In this document: in pieces, positions 17,706-33,120 of the stretch
Position numbering within the stretch: position 1 is the first letter of the stretch
Layout: each line of letters starts with the position of its first letter
Origin: Candidatus Corynebacterium faecigallinarum
GTDB lineage: Bacteria > Actinomycetota > Actinomycetes > Mycobacteriales > Mycobacteriaceae
Direction of reading: 5' to 3'
Assembly: GCA_019120175.1 (NCBI GenBank)
Contig: DWVP01000019.1
Span: 62,001-126,000 of the forward strand
DNA length: 64,000 nt
Translations under genes and position numbers: made by a program
Notes under the pieces: model-generated
Databases searched by the model: none
Told to the model about the DNA's origin: nothing
The model's input: the letters and a program-made list of their open reading frames with translations, nothing else

Positions 17706-19516
17706 CTACCGGGAGGTTCACCTGCTCACCGGACCGGCGGTCCACATCGAGCCGACATGGCCGCGCGTCACGACCGATGGTGACGTGGTCACCGTCAGGA
17801 CGAAGGTCACGAACACGACCGATGCCGACACCACCGCCGAGGTGGCGGGAGTGGTCACTGGCCCGCAGAGTGACGAGCACCCGTTGGCGGCGCAGACCGT
17901 CGACATTCCGAGGTGTGGTGAAGCGATCATCGACCACGAGCTGCGCATCGACGGGGCACAGCACTGGTCACCGGCACACCCGCACTTCCATGAGGCCCGG
18001 GTCGTGGTCGGTCCTGCCGACACAGGTCACGGTGAGGCTGACAAGACGGACGAAGCCACAGCACGCTTCGGCATCCGCGACCTCAGCGTGACGGTCGACG
18101 GGCTGTCCATCGACGGTGAAGACCACATGTTGCGCGGAGCCTGCATCCGCCCCGACAACGGCATGCTGGGTGCGGCGACGTTCCGGGACGCCGGGACCCG
18201 CCGGGTGCGCATCCTCAAGGAGGCGGGCTTCAACGCCATCCGCAGCGCGCACAACCCGGCCTCGCGGGCGTTGCTCGACGCCTGTCGAGGCCGGGCTGAG
18301 GTGGAACAAGACCGTCGCCGACAAGGTCCGGGCGCTGGACCCCACCCGGCCGGTCACCAACTGCATCAACGGCCTTCTGAACCTGGCGGCTGACGCTGAC
18401 GAAGACAAGGTCCAGGCGAAGGCGGCGAAGACCAGGGAGAGCGGGAAGCAGGCATCCAACCGCGGTGTGATTCTGCTGATGAACATGGTCATGGGTGCGA
18501 TGTCGCGTCTGATGACCTGGATCGTCCCGAAACCGATCATCGACCGGAAGACGAGGGACGCCTACGCCCAGCTTGAGGTGGCCGGCTACAACCACACGGG
18601 CGTCCGTATGGTCGCCGACCATGAGCTCCATCCCGGGCGTGTGATGGTCTGCAGTGAGGAAACCCCGAAACTGTTCATGCAGACCTGGCGCGATACCCAG
18701 GATGCGCCGTGGGCGCTGGGGAACGTCGTGTGGACCGGCTGGGACTATCTCGGTGAAGGCGCTGTCGCCGCCGCGCGGTACAACGACCATCCCCGCATGT
18801 TCGCCCCGTTCCCGGCGCTCACCGCGGGAACCCCGGTCATCGACATCACCGGGCACCGTCAGCCACAGTCCTACGCCTACGAGATCGGGTGGGGTCTGCG
18901 CGACGACCCCTATATCGCGGTGCGTCCCCTCACCCATGTGGGCGAGAAGATGGTCGCCTCGAACTGGCGGATGAGTGATTCAGTGCGCAGCTGGACCTGG
19001 CCGGGGCATGAGGGTGTGGGCGCGACGGTCGAGGTCTACGCACAGGTGGGGGCCACCGTTGAGTTGAGTCTGGACGGGGCGGTCGTCGGACGTGCCACCG
19101 CCGGTGACGATCTCTGCGCCCGTTTCACGCTGCCTTATGCACCCGGGGTCCTGGAGGCCCGTACGGAGACAGGTGTGGACCGGCTCGCCACCGAGCCTGA
19201 CCAGACTCTGGGCCTCGACTCTGACCGGGACGTCCTGCGTCCCAATGGTCAGGACCTCGCCTTCGTCGAGGTCAGCAGCCCCGGAGTCGACCGTGACATC
19301 CGGGTCACCGTCGACGGTGCGGGCAGCCTGCAGGGATTCGGCTCCGGCAACCCGATCACCACCCAGGGTTATACGACGGGTGTCCGCTCGACGTTCCACG
19401 GACGTGCCGTCGCCGTGGTCCGGGCAGGTGTCGTTCCCGGAGAGATCCGGGTCACCGCGACAGCAACCGGGGGAGAGGTGGCCACGACGGTGATCACCGT
19501 GGAGGAGAGTCAGTAG
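17680..19516 (+). pseudogene. GH2 beta-galactosidase, truncated and internally deleted
   Basis: Family 2 glycoside hydrolase remnant in two frames. The first starts abruptly at SRWYTGSGIYREVHLL, normally some 150 residues into the protein, and runs through the beta-sandwich to FNAIRSAHNPASRALLDAC. A deletion of roughly 100 residues follows at about 18285, removing the conserved NE acid/base Glu, and the frame changes to LRWNKTVADKVRALDPTRPV. The second part keeps the likely nucleophile region (CSEETPK), NVVWTGWDYLGE, and the C-terminal domains to the stop. Both the missing 5' end and the lost acid/base make it inactive. Confidence 0.85.
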
Positions 19517-20815: not shown

Positions 20816-21298
20816 CTACCCGATGAGCCAGGACCACCAGGAGCTGCGGCTGCGTTCGCCTGGTTCGCGGACGCGGATGGTGATGTCCCCGCCGTAGCTG
20901 CGTCCTTGCAGGACGACGGTGGGGGAGGACGGTCCGATGTTTCGTCCTGGGGCCTCGGTGACGTCCGAGAGGATCCCGGTCATCCGGTTGTCGACCCGTA
21001 TGCCGGGCGGCACCGTGAGGTTGATGGTGCCCAGGTAGGAGGTGACGATGATGGTGGTGACCGGGGCGGAGAGGGTGGCCTGCCTCAGGTCGAGGTTGAT
21101 GTCGGAGGCGACCAGCGTATGTGTCTCACGCTCGGCCAAATGGTAGCCGCCGGCCCGGGTGATCTCGTTGAACCAGATGACGTCGACCAGGTCGGAGAAC
21201 TCGGCCAGGTCGATGCGTCCCTGGCCGACGGCGAGGGTGAGGTCGTCGTTGAGTTGCTGACGGCGGGAGTCGTCGATCCGGTCGGGGAGTTCTGTCAT
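20816..21298 (-). CDS. DUF1707 / LiaF-C-like protein (short paralogue)
   Basis: A 160-aa cytoplasmic protein. Residues 4-50 match the DUF1707 SHOCT-like module (RRQQLNDDLTLAVGQGRIDLAEFSDLVD, quoted in part), followed by a beta-rich C-terminal domain with TINLTVPPGIRV and GGDITIRV, as in the LiaF C-terminal or adhesin-like fold. The internal ATG at MTELPDR is preferred: TGGAG precedes it and the domain starts there. It is the second gene of a tandem pair with the longer paralogue 40 bp upstream. Confidence 0.7.
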   Translation of the reverse strand: MTELPDRIDDSRRQQLNDDLTLAVGQGRIDLAEFSDLVDVIWFNEITRAGGYHLAERETHTLVASDINLDLRQATLSAPVTTIIVTSYLGTINLTVPPGIRVDNRMTGILSDVTEAPGRNIGPSSPTVVLQGRSYGGDITIRVREPGERSRSSWWSWLIG

Positions 21299-21338
21299 GA
21301 CTCCAGGTTTCGTCGGTGGGACGGTGGCCGGTACTGGT

Positions 21339-22127
21339 TCAGCCCTCGGTGAGCCAGCTCCAGAAACTCTGCTTCTCGCCAGGTTCGGCGACCCGGACCC
21401 GCAGGTCACCGAAGGTCGAGCGTCCGGTGAGTACCACCGTCGGAGCGTCCGGGTAGTTCGGGGCCGGCCCGCCCTCACGCTGCGTCACCTTGACGTCCCC
21501 GAACGGAAGTGTCATCTGGTTGACCACCTGCACACCCGGAGGAACGGTGAGCTTCACACTGCCGAAGACCAGACTGACCTGCAGCACGGTGGTGGATGCG
21601 GTCAGCGAGGCCTCCCGCAGATCCAGTGTCAGGTCGCCGAAGACCAGGCTGTAGCCCTGCCGTTCGCCGAGCTGCATGGTGCTCGTGAGTTCGATGTCGC
21701 CGAACCAGGATGACTGGGTCGGCACATGATCATGCGGGACGACGGTGGTGGCCTCGAAGTTGCTGATGGCCGCGGAGAAGGAGCTGATACTGCCCTTGGG
21801 CTTCTTCGCTGGAGGGTTGTCCGTTCCGGATTCTGGTGACGGGCCGGCCTTCTCGGCGAGACGGTCGATCTCGGCGTCATCGGGGGTGGCCGATTTTCCG
21901 GCGATGAGCTGCTCGAGGCGGGCGAAGCGGTCGACATCGGTGACCGACCACACGGCGTCGGTGATCGTGGAGAACTCGCTGAGGTCGATCCGACCCTGAC
22001 CGACGGCGAGGGTGAGTTTCTCGTTGAGGTCCTGGCGGCGGGCATCGTCGATGCGGGCGGGCAGCGGGTTGCCGGGGTCGCTGGCGTTACTGGGGTCGGA
22101 CGGGCCTGTCGGTTCCGGGGTGGTCAT
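21339..22127 (-). CDS. DUF1707 / LiaF-C-like protein (long paralogue)
   Basis: A 262-aa paralogue of the following gene: RIDDARRQDLNEKLTLAVG near residue 25, a central linker of about 60 residues rich in Ser, Pro and Lys, then FGDIELTSTMQLGERQ, GSVKLTVPPGVQV and FGDLRVRVAEPGE. The beta-rich part resembles the C-terminal domain of LiaF-type cell-envelope stress proteins. No membrane helix is seen. TATCCT lies seven bases before the ATG, fitting a leaderless promoter. Confidence 0.7.
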   Translation of the reverse strand: MTTPEPTGPSDPSNASDPGNPLPARIDDARRQDLNEKLTLAVGQGRIDLSEFSTITDAVWSVTDVDRFARLEQLIAGKSATPDDAEIDRLAEKAGPSPESGTDNPPAKKPKGSISSFSAAISNFEATTVVPHDHVPTQSSWFGDIELTSTMQLGERQGYSLVFGDLTLDLREASLTASTTVLQVSLVFGSVKLTVPPGVQVVNQMTLPFGDVKVTQREGGPAPNYPDAPTVVLTGRSTFGDLRVRVAEPGEKQSFWSWLTEG

Positions 22128-22201
22128 ATCGTCGAGGATACTGTGTGGTCCGGACAGGACGTGGCGTCAGGTGTCGGTGTCCTACCGCAGGTGGCGAATG
22201 C

Positions 22202-22226
22202 TGTACCGATCAACTTGATCGGTACA
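22202..22226. promoter_or_regulatory. 25-bp perfect palindrome upstream of the ABC importer
   Basis: Half-site TGTACCGATCAA and its exact reverse complement flank a central C. It lies about 70 bases before the binding-protein start, where a repressor operator would be expected. Perfect symmetry and the TTGATC core suit a LacI-, ROK- or GntR-type regulator. No regulator gene is adjacent. Confidence 0.65.
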
Positions 22227-22294
22227 CAAACGATGAATATGCAGGTCAGATGGCTTGACTTAATCGCTTCAGAGGCCTTGACTGGCACCTTGTG

Positions 22295-23293
22295 ATGTTC
22301 AAGAAGACGCTCAAGACTGTTGCCGCCACGGTGACGGCAGCCCTCGCGGTATCCCTCGCCGCCTGCTCGTCCACCGGTGGTGCGCCACGCGGAAACGGTG
22401 ACGGGGAAGGCGGCGGCACCGTCGACACCCCCCGCTACACCGTCTCCATGGTCAGCCACGGAGCCCCCGGCGACACCTTCTGGGACCTGGTGCGCAAGGG
22501 TGCGGAGGACGCCGCGCAGAAGAACAACATCGAACTTCGCTACGCCTCCGACCCGCAGGCCCCGAACCAGGCGTCCCTGGTGCAGTCCGCCATCGACTCC
22601 GACGTCGACGGCATCGCGGTGACCATGCCCAACGCCAGTGCGATCGGCCCGGTCGCCCAGAAAGCCGTCGACGCCGGCATCCCCGTCGTCGGCCTCAACG
22701 CCGGTATGGACGAGTACCAGGACTACGGTCTCACCGGTTTCTTCGGCCAGGAGGAGGGCGTGGCCGGTGAGCGCGCCGGGGAACGTCTCGAGGACGAGGG
22801 TGCAGACAAGGTGCTCTGCGTCATCCACGAGCAGGGCAACTCCTCCCAGGAGGCCCGGTGCGACGGCATCCGTAAGGGACTGGGCAGCGGCAGCGTCGAG
22901 ATCCTCTACGTCAACGGCCAGGACCTCACCTCGGTGAGCTCCACGGTGCAGTCCAAGCTCACCCAGGACCGGGACATCGACTGGGTCATGGGCCTGGTCA
23001 CCCCGGTGTCCCTCGTCGCCGCCGACGCGGCCGACTCCGCCGGTGTCGACATCCAGGTCGGCACCTTCGACACCAACTCCGAGCTGGTGCCCGCCATCCG
23101 GGACGGCCGGGTCAGCTTCGCCGTCGACCAGCAGCCCTACCTGCAGGGCTACATGGCGGTCGACTCGCTGTGGCTGGCCAAGCGCAACGGCACCACTGTC
23201 GGCGGCGGACGTCCTGTCTACAGTGGGCCCAGCTTCGTCGACGCCGACAACATCGACACCATCGCCGATGCCACGAAGGAGGGACTGCGATGA
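22295..23293 (+). CDS. Sugar-type ABC substrate-binding lipoprotein (CUT2-like)
   Basis: A 332-aa extracytoplasmic binding protein of the ribose/galactose class. Signal peptide with lipobox LAAC near residue 27, a Gly-rich spacer, then YTVSMVSHGAPGDTFWDLV opening the first lobe, GIAVTMPNA, and QPYLQGYMAV in the second. The ligand is likely a monosaccharide or polyol but not readable. ATG (MFKKTLKT) directly follows an alternative GTG; no good ribosome site is seen for either. It is the first gene of a tightly packed run of six, overlapping the permease by ATGA. Confidence 0.85.
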   Translation: MFKKTLKTVAATVTAALAVSLAACSSTGGAPRGNGDGEGGGTVDTPRYTVSMVSHGAPGDTFWDLVRKGAEDAAQKNNIELRYASDPQAPNQASLVQSAIDSDVDGIAVTMPNASAIGPVAQKAVDAGIPVVGLNAGMDEYQDYGLTGFFGQEEGVAGERAGERLEDEGADKVLCVIHEQGNSSQEARCDGIRKGLGSGSVEILYVNGQDLTSVSSTVQSKLTQDRDIDWVMGLVTPVSLVAADAADSAGVDIQVGTFDTNSELVPAIRDGRVSFAVDQQPYLQGYMAVDSLWLAKRNGTTVGGGRPVYSGPSFVDADNIDTIADATKEGLR

Positions 23294-24336
23294 GTAGCCC
23301 GGCCACCGTCCCCGCCGCGGACACCGAGCCGCCACGGACCCGCCAGGGACTCGACAAGCTGCTGCACCGTCCGGAGCTCGCCAGCCTGATCGGCACCATC
23401 GGCGTGTTCGTACTGTTCATGATCGTCGCCCCGAGCTTCCGTTCCATGGACGCTTTCGCCACGGTGCTCTACACGTCCTCCACCTTGGGGATCATCGCCC
23501 TGGCCGTCGGCCTGCTGATGATCGGCGACGAGTTCGACCTGTCCACCGGTGTGGCGGTGACGACCACCGCGCTGGCGGCCACCATGCTGGCCTACAACTT
23601 CCACCTGCAGACCTGGGTCGGCTCCCTGCTCGCCCTGGCGATCGCGCTGGCCATCGGCTTCTTCAACGGGTTCATGGTCACCCGTACCGGCATACCCAGT
23701 TTCCTCATCACCCTGGCGACCTTCCTCATGCTGCAGGGGCTGAACCTGGCGATCACCAAACTGGTCAACGACCAGGTCGCCACCCCGGTCATCTCCGACA
23801 TGCAGGGCTACGAGTTCTGCCGGATGATCTTCGCCGGCTCGGTCGACATCTTCGGGGTCACCGTGAAGGTCACCGTCTTCTGGTGGATCCTCTTCGTCGC
23901 CGTGGCCACCTGGGTGCTGTTCAAGACACGCTTCGGCAACTGGATCTTCGCCGTCGGCGGGGACAAGGAGGCCGCCCGCGCCGTCGGTGTCCCGGTCGAC
24001 CGGGTGAAGATCATCCTGTTCATGACCGTCGCAGCGTCCTGCTGGTTCGTCGGTCAGCACAACCTCTACGAGTTCGACTCCATCCAGGCCGGGCAGGGTG
24101 TGGGCAATGAGTTCCTCTACATCATCGCCGCAGTCGTCGGCGGCTGCGCGATGACCGGTGGTAAGGGCACCGCGATCGGCACGGCACTCGGCGCGCTGAT
24201 CTACGGCATGACCAACCAGGGCATCGTCTACGCCGGCTGGAACCCGGACTGGCTCAAGTTCTTCCTCGGTGCCGTCCTGCTGATGGCTGTGCTGGCGAAC
24301 AACTCCTTCTCGAAGTTCTCGGAGGCCAAGAAATGA
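23290..24336 (+). CDS. ABC permease, RbsC/CUT2 type
   Basis: A 348-aa inner-membrane permease with about eight to ten helices, forming the channel of the importer. Typical RbsC-like features are ALAVGLLMIGDEFDLSTG after the second helix and IGFFNGFMVTRTGIPSFLITL, the conserved loop of the family. The start overlaps the binding-protein stop (ATGA) and its stop overlaps the ATPase start, so the three are translationally coupled. Confidence 0.88.
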   Translation: MSSPATVPAADTEPPRTRQGLDKLLHRPELASLIGTIGVFVLFMIVAPSFRSMDAFATVLYTSSTLGIIALAVGLLMIGDEFDLSTGVAVTTTALAATMLAYNFHLQTWVGSLLALAIALAIGFFNGFMVTRTGIPSFLITLATFLMLQGLNLAITKLVNDQVATPVISDMQGYEFCRMIFAGSVDIFGVTVKVTVFWWILFVAVATWVLFKTRFGNWIFAVGGDKEAARAVGVPVDRVKIILFMTVAASCWFVGQHNLYEFDSIQAGQGVGNEFLYIIAAVVGGCAMTGGKGTAIGTALGALIYGMTNQGIVYAGWNPDWLKFFLGAVLLMAVLANNSFSKFSEAKK

Positions 24337-25136
24337 GCGCCGACATGAGTGCCGACATGAGCGGAGACACGACGGACGCACCGGTGATCGAGCTGCGCGG
24401 GGTGGGCAAGAGCTACGGGTCCTTCCGCGCCCTCGACGACATCTCCCTGTCGGTGCGGCAGGGCCATGTGACCTGCGTGCTCGGCGACAACGGCGCCGGC
24501 AAGTCCACGCTGATCAAGACCCTGGCCGGACTGCACAAACCCACCGACGGGGAGATCCTCGTCGACGGCGAACCGGTGGAGTTCGCCAACCCGCGGGACG
24601 CCCTGGACCACGGCATCGCCACGGTCTACCAGGACCTTGCGGTGGTCGGGCAGATGCCGGTGTGGCGCAACTTCTTCCTCGGCCAGGAACTGACCGGACG
24701 CTTCGGTCGGATGAGGGAGACCGAGATGCGCGAGATCACCCGGGAGCGGCTCACCCGCATGGGCGTTGACCTGCCGGACGTCGGGGTACCCATCGCCTCG
24801 CTCTCCGGTGGGCAGCGTCAGGTCGTCGCCATCGCCCGCGCGGTGTACTTCGGGGCCCGGGTGCTGATCCTGGACGAGCCGACCGCCGCCCTGGGTGTGA
24901 AGCAGTCCGGGATGGTGCTGCGGTTCATCGCCGCCGCCCGGGACGACGGCATCGGTGTCATCCTCATCACCCACAATCCGCACCACGCCCACATGGTCGG
25001 GGACCACTTCATCCTGCTCAACATGGGCCGTGAGGTGCTCGACGCCACCCGGGAGGAGGTCACCCTGGAGGAGCTGACGATGCAGATGGCCGGGGGTGGC
25101 GAACTTGATTCTCTGGCGCATGAGCTCGAACGGTAG
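24333..25136 (+). CDS. ABC ATPase, single-domain CUT2 type
   Basis: Powers the importer. It is 267 aa with one nucleotide-binding domain: Walker A GDNGAGKST, Q-loop YQDLAVV, signature LSGGQRQVVAIARA, Walker B VLILDEPTAALG, and the His switch ITHNPHHA. Most CUT2 ATPases are tandem-duplicated near 500 aa; this is the shorter FrcA-like form. The N-terminus carries a small repeat MSADMSADMSGD. Only 12 bases separate its stop from the next gene, an FHA-like protein. Confidence 0.9.
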   Translation: MSADMSADMSGDTTDAPVIELRGVGKSYGSFRALDDISLSVRQGHVTCVLGDNGAGKSTLIKTLAGLHKPTDGEILVDGEPVEFANPRDALDHGIATVYQDLAVVGQMPVWRNFFLGQELTGRFGRMRETEMREITRERLTRMGVDLPDVGVPIASLSGGQRQVVAIARAVYFGARVLILDEPTAALGVKQSGMVLRFIAAARDDGIGVILITHNPHHAHMVGDHFILLNMGREVLDATREEVTLEELTMQMAGGGELDSLAHELER

Positions 25137-25148
25137 GAGTATGAGCCC

Positions 25149-25823
25149 ATGACGTTTCCTGGCCAGATCCTGATCGACGACCTCATCGGCAACCGTGTCG
25201 CGCTGAATCCGGGGCAGCGGATCACCCTGGGGCGTGCCGCGCAGTTCCCGCTGGCCGCCGACGATGAGTTCATGCACCGGATGTTCCTGCAGTTCTGGGA
25301 CGCCGATGGCACCTGGATGGTCACCAACCTGGGCACCCGGATCACCGCCAGCATCGAGCCCCGGGCGGAGAACTCCTTCAGCCAGCTGCGTCTGGGACCC
25401 GGGGCGACCCTGCCGCTGCCGTTGGGTGAGTCCTCGATGGTCTTCGCCACCTCGTTGACCACCTATGAGCTGGCGTTGACCGTCGCGGCGACGCTGCGTC
25501 CCCCCAGCGGAGGCAGCGCCCCCGTCGGTTCCACCATGACCACAGGTGACTTCATCCCCAACGCCGAGCAGTCGGCACTGCTGCGTGCGCTGGCGTGGCC
25601 GCTGGTGAAGCGTCCGGGCAGTGATCTGTCGGACGTCCCCTCGGTCAAGGAGCTGGAGGAGTCCCTCGGCTGGACACAGAAGAAGGTCAACACCAAGATC
25701 GACTACATCTGTAAGTCGCTGGAGGCCAGCGGTGTGCCGGGGTTCTCCGCGAAAAACGGCAATGCGCCGACCCGGCGCCTGGCACTGGCCAGGTATGCTC
25801 AGGAAAACTACTGGTCTCTGTAG
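25149..25823 (+). CDS. FHA-like plus winged-helix protein next to the kinase
   Basis: A 224-aa cytoplasmic protein not assigned to a named family. Residues about 10-115 look like a forkhead-associated beta-sandwich (ITLGRAAQFPLAADD, then FMHRMFLQFWD and NLGTRITAS). The FHA Gly-Arg and His are kept, but the Ser that binds phosphothreonine is replaced by Phe-Met. Residues about 150-224 look like a small helix-turn-helix (VKELEESLGWTQKKVNTKID). AGGAG lies nine bases before the ATG. It sits between the ABC ATPase and the kinase operon, suggesting a phospho-signalling adaptor or regulator. Confidence 0.55.
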   Translation: MTFPGQILIDDLIGNRVALNPGQRITLGRAAQFPLAADDEFMHRMFLQFWDADGTWMVTNLGTRITASIEPRAENSFSQLRLGPGATLPLPLGESSMVFATSLTTYELALTVAATLRPPSGGSAPVGSTMTTGDFIPNAEQSALLRALAWPLVKRPGSDLSDVPSVKELEESLGWTQKKVNTKIDYICKSLEASGVPGFSAKNGNAPTRRLALARYAQENYWSL

Positions 25824-25838
25824 TCGGAAGGTCCGCAC

Positions 25839-26627
25839 GTGGGCAATAATGAGTGGGGGTCGCCTACCCCGCGCAATAATCCGTGGCTGCCGGACGAGAC
25901 GGCCGTGCAGCCCGTCCCGGACGCTGCTGCGGCCGCTGGAACCCCTGGCGGGGCACCGCAGCGTTCCGGCGGTGGCCGCGGCCCGATCATCACCGTCGCC
26001 CTCATCGCCGTGGTGGTTCTGGTCATTGTGGCCGTGGTCATCTGGGGGATGTTCGGACGCGACGGTGACTCGGACTCCAGCAGCTCCGACGGGGCCGGCG
26101 ACGTCACCTTCGTCCCGGTGCCCGAGTCCGGTGCCGCCGACACGGATGACGAGGACGACACAGATGAGTCGTCGACCTCCTCGGCGTCGCCCTCGGAGCG
26201 TCCTGACGACGACAACGACGATGACGACAATGACGACAACGACGAGGACCGGTTCGGCGGCAGCGGCGACCTCAACGGCGACCGGGTGACCGCCCAGGGG
26301 TTCCCGAACACCCCACGTGCCGCCAACGGCGTCCCCGCCGCCCAGTGTAACGGCGACGACACCTGGATCTTCGCCGGCACCAACGGCGACGACCGGGCGG
26401 TGATCTGCCAGGTCGGTGAGCGGGGTGACTACTACTACCGCGGCTACTACAACGAGGGTGCCGCCGAGCACGACATCGACATGGACCGCGTCGGCAGCGG
26501 GTACTGGGTGACCGAGAAGGTCGGGTCGCTGCGCATCGAGATCACCTCCGACGGCGTCCAGGTGCTGCGGGAGGACGGCAGTGAGCGCTCCGGGCGCGAC
26601 TTCACCTGGAGCGCGGACAACTCATGA
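25839..26627 (+). CDS. Single-pass membrane protein with an exported Cys-pair domain
   Basis: A 262-aa protein: cytoplasmic Pro/Ala-rich N-terminus of about 50 residues, one membrane helix (IITVALIAVVVLVIVAVVIW), a long Ser/Asp-rich linker with Asp runs, then a domain of about 100 residues with QCNGDDTWIFAG and VICQVGERGDYYYR, where two Cys may pair. A homologous domain ends the protein at 29711-30529. The GTG start has GGAAGG six bases upstream. It overlaps the kinase gene by ATGA, so it probably acts with it. No named family recognised. Confidence 0.6.
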   Translation: MGNNEWGSPTPRNNPWLPDETAVQPVPDAAAAAGTPGGAPQRSGGGRGPIITVALIAVVVLVIVAVVIWGMFGRDGDSDSSSSDGAGDVTFVPVPESGAADTDDEDDTDESSTSSASPSERPDDDNDDDDNDDNDEDRFGGSGDLNGDRVTAQGFPNTPRAANGVPAAQCNGDDTWIFAGTNGDDRAVICQVGERGDYYYRGYYNEGAAEHDIDMDRVGSGYWVTEKVGSLRIEITSDGVQVLREDGSERSGRDFTWSADNS

Positions 26628-28153
26628 CGGTTCCCGACGGACAAGCCCAGCTCGCCGAGCTTCTCGAGGAGAAGCACAACCTCTCCCAGCTCAGCCTCAT
26701 CGGCCATGGCGGGATGGGGCACGTCTACCGGGCTTTCGACAATGCGCTGCACCGGTGGGTCGCGGTGAAGGTGATCCGTCCGGAAGCGGTCTCCACCGAC
26801 GACGCCTTCAAGCGGTTCGCCGCCGAGATGCGCACCCTGGCCGGCATCCGGCATTCCGCGGTGATGAACATCCACTATTCCGGACGCAGCAGCGACGCCG
26901 ACGGCTCGTCGACCTACTTCGTCATGGACTACGTGCCCGGCGGTGACCTGGAGAAGGCGATCACCGACCGACGGGCCAGCGAAAACCGCTTCACCGTCGC
27001 CGAGGTGGACTCTGTCCTGCGGCCGGTGGCGCAGGCACTGGACTACCTGCACCACCGGCAGTCCCCGGTGATCCACCGCGATCTCAAGCCGGCGAATATC
27101 CTGCTGCCGGAGGACCCGGGGACCACCTCGGTGCTCACCGACTTCGGTATCAGCATCGCCGGTGAGGACACCCGGATGACCTCCACCGGACTGGTGATCG
27201 GCACCGAGAAGTACATGGCGCCGGAGATTTTCTCGGTGGCCAGCACCTGGGGTGCGCACAAGGTCGACTACAGTCCGGCGACCGACCGTTACGCCCTGGC
27301 GCTGATCGCCGTGGAGATGCTCACCCTCACAGCCTTCCGCGACACGATGAGCCAGCGGGCCTGGCGGGGTGAGCGGACCCTGCCGGCGTTGACCGTCGGC
27401 AACCTGGCGACGCAGGACGCACAGGTCCCCGGTGTGGCCGAGCGGGTCACCGAGGTCTTCGGCGTCGCCCTGAACAATGATCCGGGCAGCCGGTACACCA
27501 GCGCGGTCGCCTTCCTGGATGCCCTGGTTGCAGCGGTGTCCCCGGCGGGCCCGCCGGCGCAGCACACCGCGGCGGCCCCGCGTCCGACAGTGCAGCAGAC
27601 CAGGGTGGCGCCGGTGTCACCGCCGCAGCGTCCGACACCACAGGCGCCACCGGCACAGTCGCGGCGTCGTACCGGACGCAGCGTCGGCATCCTGGTCACC
27701 ATCGTCCTGCTGATCGCCGGTACCGGGCTGCTGGGCGTGCTCGGTTACCAGCAGGTGCTGTACCCGGGGTGGGACTCCCGGGACGCCAGGATGGTCGAGG
27801 CGTTCCCCGATCTCCTGCCGGAGCGACAGAAGCAGGACGGCTGGCGGTCGATGAGCTGTTCGGGGCGCGAACCGTCCGGCGACGAGACTGCCCGGGTGGT
27901 CTGCGCGGATTCCTCGCTGACGATGGTGGTCGTGGACTTCGGCGACAGTGACACGCGGGCCCGTTACGTCTCAGGTGAGGGCACGCCGATGGACTACAAC
28001 GGTTGTGTCATCGATGTCGAGACCGACGGCGACAACATCATGGTCTTTCCCTGGGACAGCGACAAGACCCGCTACGCGATGATCCTGGCCGGCCTTGACG
28101 TTGATACGGCGGACGAGCCCACTGATGTGGTGCAGAACATGCCGGTCTGCTGA
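26624..28153 (+). CDS. Transmembrane Ser/Thr protein kinase (PknB-type)
   Basis: A 509-aa Hanks-type kinase. The catalytic domain spans about residues 24-300: glycine loop IGHGGMGHVY, Lys 49 in VAVKVIRP, HRDLKPAN with Asp 153, DFG at 173, and an activation loop with several Thr (TRMTSTGLVIGT) open to autophosphorylation. A Pro/Gln-rich juxtamembrane segment leads to one membrane helix near 352-375. The exported C-terminal part of about 130 residues has three Cys pairs and no PASTA repeats. Its own overlap with the preceding membrane protein and the near-contiguous ABC genes suggest a sensor kinase linked to solute uptake. Confidence 0.9.
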   Translation: MTVPDGQAQLAELLEEKHNLSQLSLIGHGGMGHVYRAFDNALHRWVAVKVIRPEAVSTDDAFKRFAAEMRTLAGIRHSAVMNIHYSGRSSDADGSSTYFVMDYVPGGDLEKAITDRRASENRFTVAEVDSVLRPVAQALDYLHHRQSPVIHRDLKPANILLPEDPGTTSVLTDFGISIAGEDTRMTSTGLVIGTEKYMAPEIFSVASTWGAHKVDYSPATDRYALALIAVEMLTLTAFRDTMSQRAWRGERTLPALTVGNLATQDAQVPGVAERVTEVFGVALNNDPGSRYTSAVAFLDALVAAVSPAGPPAQHTAAAPRPTVQQTRVAPVSPPQRPTPQAPPAQSRRRTGRSVGILVTIVLLIAGTGLLGVLGYQQVLYPGWDSRDARMVEAFPDLLPERQKQDGWRSMSCSGREPSGDETARVVCADSSLTMVVVDFGDSDTRARYVSGEGTPMDYNGCVIDVETDGDNIMVFPWDSDKTRYAMILAGLDVDTADEPTDVVQNMPVC

Positions 28154-28297: not shown

Positions 28298-29533
28298 ATG
28301 GCCAACTACGACCTGTACACCGAACTCCACCTCGACAAGGACATGCCGCCGAGCGGCATCTCCGAGATCCTGGCGGGACGCATCGCCGATCTGAGGACTC
28401 AGGGGTACAGGCCGGAGTCACCGGAGATGGACCAGTTGGAGACCGCCCAGGCCATCCTCGGTGACCCGTACAAGCGCGACATCTACGAGGCCGCGCTCTA
28501 CAACGGGCCGGACGACGTGGTCAACATCCGCTGGCTCCATGACCTCGCCGACGCCAAGACCCCGGTGTCCACGGTGAGCGAGCAGGTGTCTGCGGAGCCC
28601 GTGGAACCAGAGGGACGGGTGGACTCCGGGGCAGCGGACAGCGTAGGACGCCACGGTGCCGGCTACGGTGCTGGTTACGGGGTCGGCCCCGACACTGGTT
28701 ATGAGGCGACGCCGGTCGCGTCGGAGACTCCCTCCGCCGCTCCGACACGTCAGCAGGCTTACCCGGGGTACGAACCGCTGACCTCGGAAGGCCCCTCTGC
28801 TCCGGACACGGACGCGGATGCTGACGCTGATGAGCCGTCGTCGAGCACGACCTCGATCATCTCCCCGGTGCCGGACGATGCCGATGGTTCTGCTGACTCT
28901 GCGGATTCTGCGGGGTCCTATGACCCCGCTTTCTCGGCCGCCCCGATCCCCGACAATGGGACGCCTGAGGCTGAGGGTGGGGCAGTGGCGGCAGACAGCG
29001 ATAACGCTGCTGACGCCACTGACGCCACGGACTCTGCTGCCGAGGCAGGCGAGGCAGAGCAATCCGATGCGGCTGAGGCAGTGGTTCCCGCTGGTGGCCG
29101 TGGTTCCACCTCGAGCGCCTGGTTGGCCGCGGCTCCGGCGGCAGCTCCGAACTACTCCGCACCACACCAGGAGTCGGCCGGAGGTTTCGGCCAGTCGTCG
29201 CAGAAGTCCGGCGGAGCAGGACTCGACACCAGCAAGTGGGCGCTCAACGGCCGCCGACGCAGTGAATCCAAGGTCTACGTCGCGATCCTCGCGGTGCTTG
29301 CCCTGAGCATGCTCTACCCGCTGATCGCCACCATGGCCGCCTCCGACACCTCGATGGCACTGTTCCGGGCGACGCTGTTCACCCTCGCCTTCACCGTTGC
29401 AGTGGTCAGTGTCAACGAGGTCATCTGGGGCGTCCGGAAGATCGTCGCCCCCGATGCGCCGGCCCCGGTCGACGCTGCCGGTGCATCGGCTACTCCGGCC
29501 GCCGACGAGGAGGTCAGGGATTCGACGGTGTAG
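28298..29533 (+). CDS. Degenerate J-domain-like membrane protein
   Basis: A 411-aa protein. Residues 1-70 (YDLYTELHLDKDMPPSGI, then QLETAQAILGDPYKRDIYEAAL) follow the helix pattern of a DnaJ domain, but the diagnostic HPD loop is absent, so it should not stimulate Hsp70. A long Ser/Ala/Asp-rich disordered section covers about residues 95-300. Two helices near the C-terminus (AILAVLALSMLYPLIATMA and FRATLFTLAFTVAVVSV) anchor it to the membrane. Function unknown; its place between two kinase-associated genes is suggestive. A clear terminator follows. Confidence 0.6.
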   Translation: MANYDLYTELHLDKDMPPSGISEILAGRIADLRTQGYRPESPEMDQLETAQAILGDPYKRDIYEAALYNGPDDVVNIRWLHDLADAKTPVSTVSEQVSAEPVEPEGRVDSGAADSVGRHGAGYGAGYGVGPDTGYEATPVASETPSAAPTRQQAYPGYEPLTSEGPSAPDTDADADADEPSSSTTSIISPVPDDADGSADSADSAGSYDPAFSAAPIPDNGTPEAEGGAVAADSDNAADATDATDSAAEAGEAEQSDAAEAVVPAGGRGSTSSAWLAAAPAAAPNYSAPHQESAGGFGQSSQKSGGAGLDTSKWALNGRRRSESKVYVAILAVLALSMLYPLIATMAASDTSMALFRATLFTLAFTVAVVSVNEVIWGVRKIVAPDAPAPVDAAGASATPAADEEVRDSTV

Positions 29534-29554
29534 CTGCTCGAGTGAACAGAATTA

Positions 29555-29583
29555 ACGGCCGGGAACCAGGGGTTCCCGGCCGT
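29555..29583 (+). terminator. Rho-independent terminator
   Basis: ACGGCCGGGAACC and its exact reverse complement form a 13-bp stem with the loop AGG, followed by TTTG, about 20 bases after the stop of the J-like gene. Confidence 0.9.
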
Positions 29584-29710
29584 TTGTGCTGGCCACGGGG
29601 TTGATCGGCAATGTCGCCGCGCGGGGCGGTTGCTGCGAGATACTTCAGTGGAAGATAGGATTATGCGCAACTGACGTTTGCGAGAGAGACACCGGAAGGT
29701 CGTTGAGGCA

Positions 29711-30529
29711 ATGAACAACAGCTCCTGGGGTAACGGGAACAACTGGGGTGGGGATCCTGACAGGCAGGGTCGGCCGCAGGGTCAGGAGCCGTGGCAGGGC
29801 GGGGCGTACCCGCCCGGTCAACCCGGATACCAGCAGCAGGGTTACCCGGGGCAGCAGGGCTACCCGTACCCGCAGGGCTACCCCGGGCAGCCAAATGAGC
29901 AGGACCAGAAGAAGTCGAACACCGGTGTCATCGTCAGTGTGATCGCCGCACTGGTGGTCCTGATCGGTGCTGGTGGTGCCGGACTGTGGTTCCTCACCAA
30001 GGACGACTCCGATGCCGACGACTCCTCCGATTCCGTCGCCTTCGTCCCCAGCGAGTCGGAGGACCGGGACACCGGCGATGACGACACCGATGTAGGCCGC
30101 AGTGGTCTGGAGGACCGTCTGCTCGACGAGGACACCTCGTCGGATGATACGGGCGAATCCTCCGGTCTACCGTCGAACCTGAAGTACCCGGGCTTCGAGA
30201 ACAGTGACGCCCTGTGCGATGGCGATGACACGTGGGTGTACGCCGGGACTGGCGGCGGATCGGACGCAGTGGTCTGCCTCGACGAGGCGGACGACAGCTA
30301 CTACATGCGGGCAGATTTTGAGAGTGGAACGGCCCAGGGGCCGGTTGATGAAGATGCCTGGTTCGACATCGACGAGGGTGTCTATACCGTCGACGTCGAC
30401 GGCGGGACCATCGAGGTTCTCGGCGGCCTCATCTATTTTTCGGACTCCGACGGGGACACCGAGACCCTCGCCCACTTCGACACCTACTACGTGTCCGACG
30501 GGGATGACCGGTGGCGCGAGGGAAGCTAA
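29711..30529 (+). CDS. Membrane protein with PGYQ-rich N-terminus and the same exported domain
   Basis: A 272-aa protein. The N-terminal 70 residues are Gly/Pro/Gln/Tyr-rich with PGQQGY-type repeats, then one membrane helix (GVIVSVIAALVVLIGAGGAGLW), an acidic linker, and an exported domain of about 100 residues with LCDGDDTWVYAG and VVCLDEADDSYYMR. That domain is plainly homologous to the one in the kinase-operon protein at 25839-26627. TAGGAT at 29656-29661 is a possible -10. I chose ATG MNNSSWGN over the longer frame, which starts within untranslated sequence. It converges on the next gene with adjacent stop codons. Confidence 0.6.
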   Translation: MNNSSWGNGNNWGGDPDRQGRPQGQEPWQGGAYPPGQPGYQQQGYPGQQGYPYPQGYPGQPNEQDQKKSNTGVIVSVIAALVVLIGAGGAGLWFLTKDDSDADDSSDSVAFVPSESEDRDTGDDDTDVGRSGLEDRLLDEDTSSDDTGESSGLPSNLKYPGFENSDALCDGDDTWVYAGTGGGSDAVVCLDEADDSYYMRADFESGTAQGPVDEDAWFDIDEGVYTVDVDGGTIEVLGGLIYFSDSDGDTETLAHFDTYYVSDGDDRWREGS

Positions 30530-31834
30530 CTAGAACTTGGTGAAACGCTCGGTCAACTTGGTCTCCAGCTGACCCCAGCCCTCGGATTCCTCGTCGAAGG
30601 GGGCGCTCGGGGTGCCCTGCGACGGGGAGCCGAGGATGTAGGCGATGTAGTCCTGCAGACGCGGGTAGGCCAGCAGAACCTTGTTCACCCCGTCATCCTT
30701 CGCCCAGTCGGCGGCGTCGGCAAGCAACTCATAGGCCCGGGAGAGCTGGTCGGTGTCCACCGAATCGATACCGGTGGAGATGTCGTCGCGCAGTCCGGTG
30801 AAGCCGTAGACGTTGGACTGGTGCACGGTCACCTCCAGCTCACCGGCGTTGGCGAGGGTGACCAGGTCGCCCCAGGTCTCCATCTCCGCCAGGTCGTGGT
30901 CCTTCGCGTCGATCATCCAGCGGACCATGGACCGCGATGACGGGAAGGTGTGGATCTCGCCGAGCCGTCCGAGGAACACCGGCTGACGGTCACCGATGTA
31001 GCACCGCAGCGTGTAGACGGTGGTGCCGTCGATGGTGATGCGGATCGGGTCGATGCCGGCAGTTCCCCAGGGCGTGGAGTCGTAGGGGTCGGCATCGTCT
31101 GCATCGGCACCGGACGCAGCGTCTGAGTCTGAGTCGGAGCCGGAGTCCTTGCCGGCTTCCCTCCCGGAACCGTTGTCGTCGGTGTTCTTCGACGCCTCTG
31201 CCGCAGCTTCCGCAGCGTCCTGCTCAGCCTTCGCGACTGCGTCGATGCGTTCCTGGGCGGCGGCCACCGCATCGGCGTCCACCTCCGGGGTGACGATGTT
31301 CTCGTCGACAGCATCGACCAGGTCAGCCCAGTTGTCCACCACGGTGTAGCCGATGCTGGACCACTCGTTCAGCCCGTTCTCCCCCGCGTAGTGGTCGGGT
31401 CCACGGGACACGTTCGCCAGCAGGGAGTAGGCATGGAACCACCGGTTGACACGCTGGATACCGCAGACGGTGCCGAAGGAGCGCAGCACCTTGAAGGCGT
31501 TGGAGACCGTCCGGGTGTTCTCGAAGGACGCCCGGCCGGCGAGGTTGTTCGGCAGCTCGACGAAACTGACCTTCCCCGCGGCCTTCGGGGTTACCTTGGA
31601 CTCGGCCCCCTCGAGGAAAGCCTGCCACCGCGGGTGGTCGACCAGGTCGTGGTTGCTGCTGGACTCGATATGGGCGAGGAGTTCAGCGGGGGAGGAGAAG
31701 CCGAAGACACCGGTGTCGTCACCGAGAAACGCCTGCCACTCCTCACCCCGGGAGACCCACCCTGGGGCCCACAGCGTGTAGAACGTGCCGGCGGTAGTCT
31801 CGAGTTCGAGGGTGACGATTCCGTTGTCTGCCAT
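30530..31834 (-). CDS. Conserved protein with a duplicated alpha/beta module
   Basis: A 434-aa cytoplasmic protein with no named domain that I recognise. It seems to contain two related halves: near residue 15, FYTLWAPGW, FLGDDTG, then a helix ending SNHDLVDHPRW; and near residue 285, VYTLRCYIG, FLGRLGE, then a helix ending KDHDLAEMETW. The halves are separated by a linker very rich in Ala, Asp and Ser. TAGAAT lies eight bases before the ATG, indicating a leaderless start and supporting MADNGIVTL over the much longer frame. Confidence 0.65.
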   Translation of the reverse strand: MADNGIVTLELETTAGTFYTLWAPGWVSRGEEWQAFLGDDTGVFGFSSPAELLAHIESSSNHDLVDHPRWQAFLEGAESKVTPKAAGKVSFVELPNNLAGRASFENTRTVSNAFKVLRSFGTVCGIQRVNRWFHAYSLLANVSRGPDHYAGENGLNEWSSIGYTVVDNWADLVDAVDENIVTPEVDADAVAAAQERIDAVAKAEQDAAEAAAEASKNTDDNGSGREAGKDSGSDSDSDAASGADADDADPYDSTPWGTAGIDPIRITIDGTTVYTLRCYIGDRQPVFLGRLGEIHTFPSSRSMVRWMIDAKDHDLAEMETWGDLVTLANAGELEVTVHQSNVYGFTGLRDDISTGIDSVDTDQLSRAYELLADAADWAKDDGVNKVLLAYPRLQDYIAYILGSPSQGTPSAPFDEESEGWGQLETKLTERFTKF

Positions 31835-31892
31835 GACCGACGATTCTAGCCGTACGGTGCCCGTTGGTCGATGACCGGATCGCCGTTGTGTG

Positions 31893-32051
31893 TCACTGCT
31901 CACCAGCGGGCTCGTGGGTGAACAATTCGGCGGTGAGAACCGGCGGCACAGTGGGTGGCGGATCGCCGAGAAACTGCTGGACGTTGTACTCGGCGACTGG
32001 TGGGGCGGAGGTGATCCGGGCCAGGCCGGAGCGGCGGATGCCAGGGGACAT
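31893..32051 (-). CDS. 52-aa small protein
   Basis: A short complete frame starting MSPGIRRSGLARITS and ending THEPAGEQ. GAGGAG lies nine bases before the ATG, a better site than many larger genes here have. It follows the NlpC/P60 gene on the same strand after 76 bp. The product is Pro-rich in its second half with no membrane segment. I do not recognise the family. Confidence 0.5.
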   Translation of the reverse strand: MSPGIRRSGLARITSAPPVAEYNVQQFLGDPPPTVPPVLTAELFTHEPAGEQ

Positions 32052-32070
32052 GTCGAGGTTCTCCTCGTCG

Positions 32071-32120
32071 GATTCGGGGCCGGTATTCGGGGCCGGATTC
32101 GGGGTCGGTATTCGGCAGTG
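32071..32120. repeat. Direct repeats GATTCGGGGyCGGTATTCGG
   Basis: A 25-bp unit built from two near copies of ATTCGGGGCCGG is repeated once, just downstream of the NlpC/P60 stop. It looks like slippage-type duplication between that gene and the small protein. Confidence 0.4.
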
Positions 32121-32127
32121 CCCGGAG

Positions 32128-33120
32128 TCAGCCGGTGGGGCGGTAGAAGCCGAGGAAGTTCATGCCGATGTTGTCGGTACGGATCGAGCTGATCTGGACC
32201 GGATCTCCGGCCTCGATCATCTGTCCATCCCCGGTGACCATGGCGACATGGCCGTCCCACACGACCAGGTCCCCGGGGGCGAGCTGGTCGGCAGGTACCT
32301 GGGTGCCCACGGCCTGTTGGTCGGCGGTGCGGGGGATGTCCACCCCGGCCTGGCCGTAGGCCCACTGGGTGAGTCCGCTGCAGTCAAGGCCCACCCCGGG
32401 CGTGGTCCCGCCCCACGCATACGGCGTGCCCAGGGCACTGGTGGCAGCGGTGACCGCGGCGGCGGCCTCCGGGGTCGGGGCGCCGATGACCTCGGTGGCG
32501 CTGTCGCTGGCGGTGCCGGTGTCGCTGACCTGCTGTGCGATGGATCCCGACGCTGGCCCGGAGTCTGGCCCTGCGTCCGGTATCAGGGACAGTGCCGACG
32601 GTGAACCGGGGAGCGGCGGAGGGGCAGGAAGCGCCGCCCCGATTTGTTCGACCCGCCCGGTCAACCCACCGAGCTCGGCACCCAGGGCGTCCAGCCGGGC
32701 ATGTGCCCGGACCAGGTGGCCACCGGCGATCTGGACGGCCACCGCCGGAGTTGCCGGGGAGAACGGGGCGGCCGCCACGGCGGGCACCAGGTCACGTAGG
32801 CAGTCGGCGGCGATACCGGCGATGTCGGCCGCCGCCCGTTCCACCGCCACCGTCGCCTCGGCAGCCACCTCCTCCAGTTCACCGGACTGGGACAACAGGG
32901 CAGCAGCGTTGCGTCCGGCATCACCCAGCGCCCCGACGGCGGCGGTGCCGGCCGAGCCACGCAGGGCGGTGTCCACCAAGGTCGGGGCATTGTCGATGAG
33001 CAGTCCGGTCAGCTCCGCCTGATCGGCGGACAACAGCGCGGTCAGCGGATGGCTCCCCGGTGATGCGGCGGTGGGCGCCAGGGCACGGACCGGTTCAAGC
33101 AGTGCAAGGAGATCGGTCAT
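32128..33120 (-). CDS. NlpC/P60 cell-wall hydrolase
   Basis: A 330-aa protein. About 200 N-terminal residues are Ala-rich and helical, and the last 110 form an NlpC/P60 Cys peptidase: GLDCSGLTQWAY holds the catalytic Cys, GHVAMVTG the His. PYAWGGTTP precedes the Cys as in the family. Such enzymes cut peptidoglycan stem peptides. No signal peptide is evident, so export, if any, may use another route, such as a type VII-like path suggested by the EspC-like gene that it overlaps (TGATG). Confidence 0.85.
   Translation of the reverse strand: MTDLLALLEPVRALAPTAASPGSHPLTALLSADQAELTGLLIDNAPTLVDTALRGSAGTAAVGALGDAGRNAAALLSQSGELEEVAAEATVAVERAAADIAGIAADCLRDLVPAVAAAPFSPATPAVAVQIAGGHLVRAHARLDALGAELGGLTGRVEQIGAALPAPPPLPGSPSALSLIPDAGPDSGPASGSIAQQVSDTGTASDSATEVIGAPTPEAAAAVTAATSALGTPYAWGGTTPGVGLDCSGLTQWAYGQAGVDIPRTADQQAVGTQVPADQLAPGDLVVWDGHVAMVTGDGQMIEAGDPVQISSIRTDNIGMNFLGFYRPTG

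Follow-up and report, generated by a model that had tools for sequence, protein, structure and literature searches.

What joins a sugar-type importer to a set of kinase-signalling genes is the question raised by a run of six genes in Candidatus Corynebacterium faecigallinarum. The window analysed is a 64,000-nucleotide stretch of contig DWVP01000019.1 (GenBank assembly GCA_019120175.1, positions 62,001 to 126,000). All six open reading frames (ORFs) lie on the + strand at 22295..28153, with spacings of -4, -4, 12, 15 and -4 bp. They encode the binding protein, permease and ATPase of an ATP-binding cassette (ABC) importer, an FHA-like protein, a Cys-pair membrane protein and a transmembrane (TM) Ser/Thr kinase. 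A preliminary description of this DNA gave the same genes, strand, coordinates and gaps, which the ORF positions bear out, and the continuation of the kinase/FHA-like set from a CUT2-type importer is seen in the gene order. It had proposed the importer as sensor or target of the kinase. The reading favoured here, with modest confidence, is that of a predicted operon controlled by the regulator IpsA, in which a separate kinase module is appended to a likely inositol importer. It is less likely that the importer serves the kinase as sensor or substrate than that it is a companion under the same regulation.

The first evidence comes from the importer promoter. A 25-bp perfect palindrome upstream of the binding-protein gene (see the table), unique in the genome within 3 mismatches, is made up of two candidate IpsA-type sites, 22201-22214 and 22214-22227, each with a motif score of 18.1. 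IpsA of C. glutamicum is described as a LacI-type regulator that acts from sites upstream of the -35 element to activate ino1 and the operon cg0044-cg0046 for an ABC transporter, and that is released from DNA by myo-inositol; two sites are reported before ino1 and one before cg0044, and znuA adjoins in the ipsA neighbourhood (PMC3899939). The genome of the window has ino1 (L115). It also has a LacI-type gene (L111) beside a gene that appears znuA-like by eye, an ipsA candidate by neighbourhood, not by sequence. Among 22 genomes examined 17 have ino1, and 16 of these 17 ino1 promoters carry paired LacI-like sites 21-22 bp apart. The motif matrix was built from 20 distinct sites picked by eye in the 16 promoters, with the single site of G257 left out. 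It was trained on ino1-promoter sites and not on the published IpsA logo, and importer sites were kept out of it. About 99% of random 250-bp windows score below 13.

The genus sample consists of 242 Corynebacterium genomes, 157 of which have the importer's binding protein (E <= 1e-40). The downstream genes were surveyed in 111 of the 157: 31 loci chosen earlier, which include 12 kinase-linked ones and others chosen for an FHA-like gene elsewhere, and the 80 best-scoring further ones in listing order. For these 80 the fetched sequence extends at most about 15.5 kb beyond the start of the gene, and for most of the 19 others about 10 kb. The motif scores at least 13 before 84 of the 111 binding-protein genes versus none of the 301 control starts taken from these loci (111 permease, 111 ATPase, 29 core-gene, 26 ppiA and 24 upp starts, two upp starts reaching 10). 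All 12 kinase-linked importer promoters have it, as do 72 of the 99 others. A transcriptional link through IpsA-type sites predicted at the importer promoter is better supported than a sensor or target link.

The promoter counts bear on another view, that the FHA-like, likely winged-helix protein binds the palindrome and drives the operon, so that the module regulates the importer instead of IpsA. The single motif precedes ino1 and importers in module-free genomes, and G234 has the paired sites yet no FHA-like match. At the 1% level the motif is absent before kinase modules elsewhere (0/36 FHA-like and 0/31 kinase regions, taking the 500 bp upstream of unlinked modules), and at the 5% level 0/31 of these kinase regions pass. 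The view is left very improbable, even though the FHA-like protein likely binds DNA and 10 of the 12 linked promoters, as well as those of the same-clade genomes G234 and G024, have the overlapping double site.

The two halves differ in their distribution. The FHA-like protein was matched in 53/242 genomes (E <= 0.001), and an order-wide profile search matched it in 36/397 genomes, many of the matches being weak; 20 named records with FHA-like relatives are all Corynebacterium. Of 48 loci fetched for the FHA-like gene, 42 have a kinase gene on the same strand no more than 3.1 kb away. In other genera the 1.5-kb flanks contain a kinase match in 10 of 18 loci, with the kinase of L140 on the other strand. 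Since a kinase accompanies the FHA-like gene in most loci, these two form the more conserved unit; judged from the gene neighbourhoods, they are an accessory pair with a history separate from that of the importer. Nine corynebacterial loci (L013, L056, L059, L064, L067, L070, L071, L073 and L074) have the pair near a serine-hydrolase-like lipoprotein (by eye) and a different one-TM protein, which suggests a second kind of FHA-like/kinase module. L059 (G065) has two equal-scoring FHA-like copies, 2359-2979 and 18147-18767, about 15.8 kb apart, and two neighbouring genes are also duplicated there with identical proteins.

Importer and FHA-like gene occur together in 39 genomes. They are linked, that is within about 10 kb, in 12. 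The ATPase gene directly precedes the FHA-like gene in nine of these. In seven the gap is 12-13 bp, and their FHA-like proteins share 72-91% identity with that of the window; in the other two it is 87-90 bp. About 5 kb of other genes separate the halves in G149 and G059, and G010 has the order ATPase, J-like, kinase, FHA-like. The linked set includes C. variabile, C. glyciniphilum, C. kalidii, Candidatus C. avicola and strains SN15 and CNJ-954. A tree was computed for 44 of the 48 FHA-like proteins, with L079, L080, L068 and L074 left out. The nine direct-junction rows join G149, G059 and G024 in a 12-row group (support 84/91, without a star on the branch); G010 is placed with unlinked proteins, in a group of 17 (support 92/89). 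The linked/unlinked label requires two changes on this tree. By these relationships the junction is kept in the C. variabile/C. glyciniphilum clade, and G010 probably represents a second, separate origin. The FHA-like gene of G184 has an in-frame stop. An ABC exporter pair that looks FtsX-like by eye, an ATPase and a permease of about 860 aa, stands between importer and kinase module at L046 and L089 (G149, G234).

The junction may be an accident of position. An accessory kinase module could have landed by chance between importer and 30530 core gene, in a slot that tolerates it, with nothing but the address shared by the two halves; this is somewhat unlikely. The contents of the slot differ between species, and the ~5 kb of intervening genes in G149 and G059, together with the 26 of 39 genomes whose halves lie apart or on different contigs, point the same way. 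The short spacing retained in seven genomes and the probable second junction in G010 argue against it. So does the address itself. Twenty-nine of the 111 importer loci share it, standing before the 30530-type core gene, in most cases with upp nearby. Behind the ATPase come parts of the module (kinase, FHA-like, ectodomain, Cys-pair or J-like) in 19 of them and a tetraspan gene alone in three. At the core gene without importer, within about 7 kb, FHA-like, kinase, Cys-pair and ectodomain matches number 0/6 and a weak J-like match 1/6, in a small sample of related genomes; the species are related in the larger set too, so the address counts are not independent. G234 has the same address by coordinates, with kinase, ectodomain and J-like genes there and no FHA-like match. 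Behind the importer, G257 has a fusion of a J-like domain with a kinase-type ectodomain, and G113 has J-like, Cys-pair and tetraspan genes. The other 81 importer loci gave no J-like, Cys-pair, ectodomain or FHA-like match inside the fetched piece (that of G024 ends 3.1 kb past the binding-protein start). Their kinase matches are reversed and lie beyond ppiA, presumably PknA/PknB-like genes; the importer of G076 stands upstream of ppiA and PknA/B-like genes.

Several observations weigh against an IpsA-controlled importer with an appended module. The loose consensus through which the ino1 sites were located had first been noticed in importer promoters, which makes the motif partly non-independent. 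The motif does not reach 13 in 27 of the 111 importer promoters, and at the 5% level 6 of the 36 unlinked FHA-like regions pass versus 2 expected. The G113 group keeps the Cys-pair and mostly the J-like genes behind the importer, yet has lost the motif (score 5.2). Six loci (L094, L182, L186, L189, L190 and L193) with importer and Cys-pair genes, and J-like genes except at L182, have a version without the central CG, CTGAATGCTTTAAG, which scores 5.2. Seven of the 29 importers at the upp address have no module part behind them. The nearest curated model for the binding protein, the rhizopine-binding NF052284, gives 187.3 bits, far below its cut-off of 420. Finally, importer and FHA-like gene are apart in 26 of the 39 genomes with both, 10 of them on different contigs; one further genome, G024, is cut by contig ends. 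In G102, whose importer position is not listed, no binding protein occurs within 20 kb around the FHA-like gene. With these 26, the halves are separated in most relatives with both at genus scale, an outcome that the preliminary description had named as refuting its view; the pairing holds as a gene order kept in one clade and is not supported as a general rule.

The importer has the CUT2-type binding protein (Peripla_BP_4) and permease (BPD_transp_2), with Pfam scores of 138.5 bits (cut-off 35.1) for PF13407 and 170.9 (26.8) for PF02653, and its ATPase matches PF00005 above cut-off. The usual CUT2 ATPase has two fused nucleotide-binding domains. Here it is a single domain of 267 aa that matches only about the first half of the 500-residue models. 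The closest solved chain to the binding protein is 4ru1 (E 7e-85; the next chain 2e-17), from a transporter that is termed verified for myo-inositol (PMC10747050), and the substrate is therefore likely inositol or a relative.

The FHA-like protein has no Pfam match and only a weak NCBIfam FhaB match (20.9 bits, cut-off 125). Its predicted structure (predicted local distance difference test score, pLDDT, of 88) consists of an FHA beta-sandwich and a helical C-terminal domain. In fold searches the sandwich matches OdhI, the Rv1747 FHA-1 domain, GarA and EmbR. The Pfam FHA model matches 0/53 members at E 0.01 and a winged-helix model matches 1/53. The structural model makes it likely that the protein binds DNA through a C-terminal winged helix. 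The phosphothreonine pocket of an FHA domain is canonically formed by Arg, Ser and Asn. With pocket positions set by alignment to 1uht, the Gly-Arg is retained (Gly 52/53, Arg 51/53), the pocket Ser position is His in 52/53, the next His is replaced by Phe/Leu in 50/53, and the pocket Asn position is Ile/Leu/Val/Met in 52/53. Because the pocket Ser and Asn are lost, a role as a standard phosphothreonine reader is doubtful.

The kinase of the window has the Hanks-type motifs VAVK at 46-49 (K49), HRD at 151-153 and DFG at 173-175, and scores 131.7 bits for PF00069 (cut-off 31.7). A single TM segment near residue 354 leads to a 136-aa ectodomain with 4 Cys, which models well and has no clear solved relative in structure searches. 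All 42 partner kinases have DFG, 40 have HRD and 33 a VAVK-like motif. Not every one has an ectodomain, since seven of them (L013, L067, L068, L070, L071, L073 and L074) end right after the TM segment. PknG, by comparison, is not known to have an ectodomain of its own. That the kinase of the window carries one argues against the sensor or target arrangement of the preliminary description, in which the kinase would receive its signal from the binding protein or from transport activity, or would itself phosphorylate permease or ATPase. The FHA-like protein lacks the usual pocket Ser and Asn, most FHA-like genes lie away from this importer, and most importer genomes have no FHA-like gene. Gene order and two described precedents, Rv1747-PknF (PMC3908365) and GlnH-GlnX-PknG (PMC9769921), favour such an arrangement. 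It has no specific support and appears improbable.

For the companion arrangement preferred here, the following steps are proposed. Scarce inositol would place IpsA at the paired upstream sites and switch on importer and kinase module together. The inositol status of the cell would then set the amount of signalling kit made. Its ectodomain would allow the kinase to sense the envelope, perhaps together with the Cys-pair and J-like membrane proteins. Envelope genes would then be retuned by the kinase acting on the FHA-like, likely DNA-binding protein or by way of it. A bolder form of this proposal, which we regard as speculative and rather unlikely, is an inositol-gated kinase cascade: IpsA would couple the supply of a building block of phosphatidylinositol and mycothiol to a TM kinase whose partner belongs to a new FHA class, in which an invariant Asn and a nearly invariant His-Arg form the core of a rebuilt phosphothreonine pocket, and this partner would read something other than plain phosphothreonine to retune the envelope.

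Features of the locus and its surroundings in the window
Feature	Position	Strand	Remarks
25-bp perfect palindrome TGTACCGATCAA-C-TTGATCGGTACA	22202..22226	.	68 bp before binding-protein start
Third, weaker motif match CTTAATCGCTTCAG	22259..22272	.	score 14.2; similar matches in several clade relatives
Substrate-binding lipoprotein	22295..23293	+	PF13407; likely inositol-type ligand (nearest solved chain 4ru1)
Permease, BPD_transp_2	23290..24336	+	PF02653
Single-domain ABC ATPase, 267 aa	24333..25136	+	PF00005
FHA-like fold (~residues 1-115) and helical C-terminal domain, likely winged helix	25149..25823	+	altered phosphothreonine pocket
Cys-pair membrane protein	25839..26627	+	one TM, two-Cys outer domain (C170, C190)
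TM Ser/Thr kinase	26624..28153	+	PF00069; 136-aa ectodomain with four Cys
J-domain-like membrane protein (by eye; no Pfam match)	28298..29533	+	same cluster in linked clade
Hairpin behind J-like gene	29554..29584		listed by scan as - strand terminator-like site
Second Cys-pair one-TM protein	29711..30529	+	clusters with 25839 gene
Core gene	30530..32365	-	bounds slot behind importer; matched in 240/242 genomes

The palindrome and the two further + strand genes downstream (28298-29533 and 29711-30529) extend the locus beyond the preliminary description. Importer and kinase module are favoured as a predicted, lineage-specific operon that would give a single transcript. A promoter or terminator between the ATPase and FHA-like genes had been named as a sign that the halves are separate; the scan lists no + strand site of either kind in this junction, which is weak evidence since it gave no promoter before the binding-protein gene either. 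The Cys-pair protein at 25839..26627 gave no family above cut-off in Pfam/NCBIfam-type model searches, and the protein at 30530-32365 has no Pfam family at E 1e-5, though matched in almost every Corynebacterium genome of the sample. Upstream, tandem DUF1707/LiaF-like genes (20816-22127, - strand) diverge from the importer, and 10 of the 12 linked loci, counting the window, have a relative of the nearer one upstream.

To our knowledge, the signals sensed by actinobacterial accessory kinases are mostly unknown. If the proposal is true, the operon ties the supply of inositol, which phosphatidylinositol-based lipids and mycothiol require, to a Ser/Thr kinase with a likely DNA-binding partner, and it illustrates how genomic position alone can bring an accessory kinase module under the control of a metabolic regulator. 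It would also provide candidate substrates for the cg0044-46-type transporter family; the account of that transporter in the IpsA paper gives it no assigned function (PMC3899939).

Four known systems resemble parts of this locus. Like the IpsA regulon of C. glutamicum (ino1; cg0044-cg0046), it has a three-gene importer and a candidate upstream LacI-type site with a motif shared with ino1 (PMC3899939); here the site is doubled and a kinase module is appended, and orthology to cg0044-46 is presumed. The PknH-EmbR system of M. tuberculosis is described as an ectodomain kinase with a protein joining FHA and DNA-binding domains (PMC4601284). The DNA-binding domain is predicted here, and the fold matches of the FHA-like protein extend to the EmbR FHA domain. 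Unlike in EmbR, however, the domain order is reversed, there is no BTA domain and the phosphothreonine pocket is altered, and an importer belongs to the gene run. The two-gene M. tuberculosis operon of the ABC transporter Rv1747 and its kinase PknF likewise brings together an ABC transporter, an FHA fold and a Ser/Thr kinase (PMC3908365), as the predicted operon does here. The FHA domains of Rv1747 lie within the transporter, which is thought to be an exporter (PMC5549992), whereas in the window the FHA-like protein is separate and the transporter is an importer. GlnH-GlnX-PknG-OdhI combines a solute-binding lipoprotein, Ser/Thr kinase signalling and an FHA protein (PMC9769921), elements that are linked by gene order in the window. 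In that system the four-TM GlnX relays to PknG, whereas here a TM kinase stands beside a complete transporter, a pairing that differs from PknG-GlnX-GlnH as the preliminary description had held.

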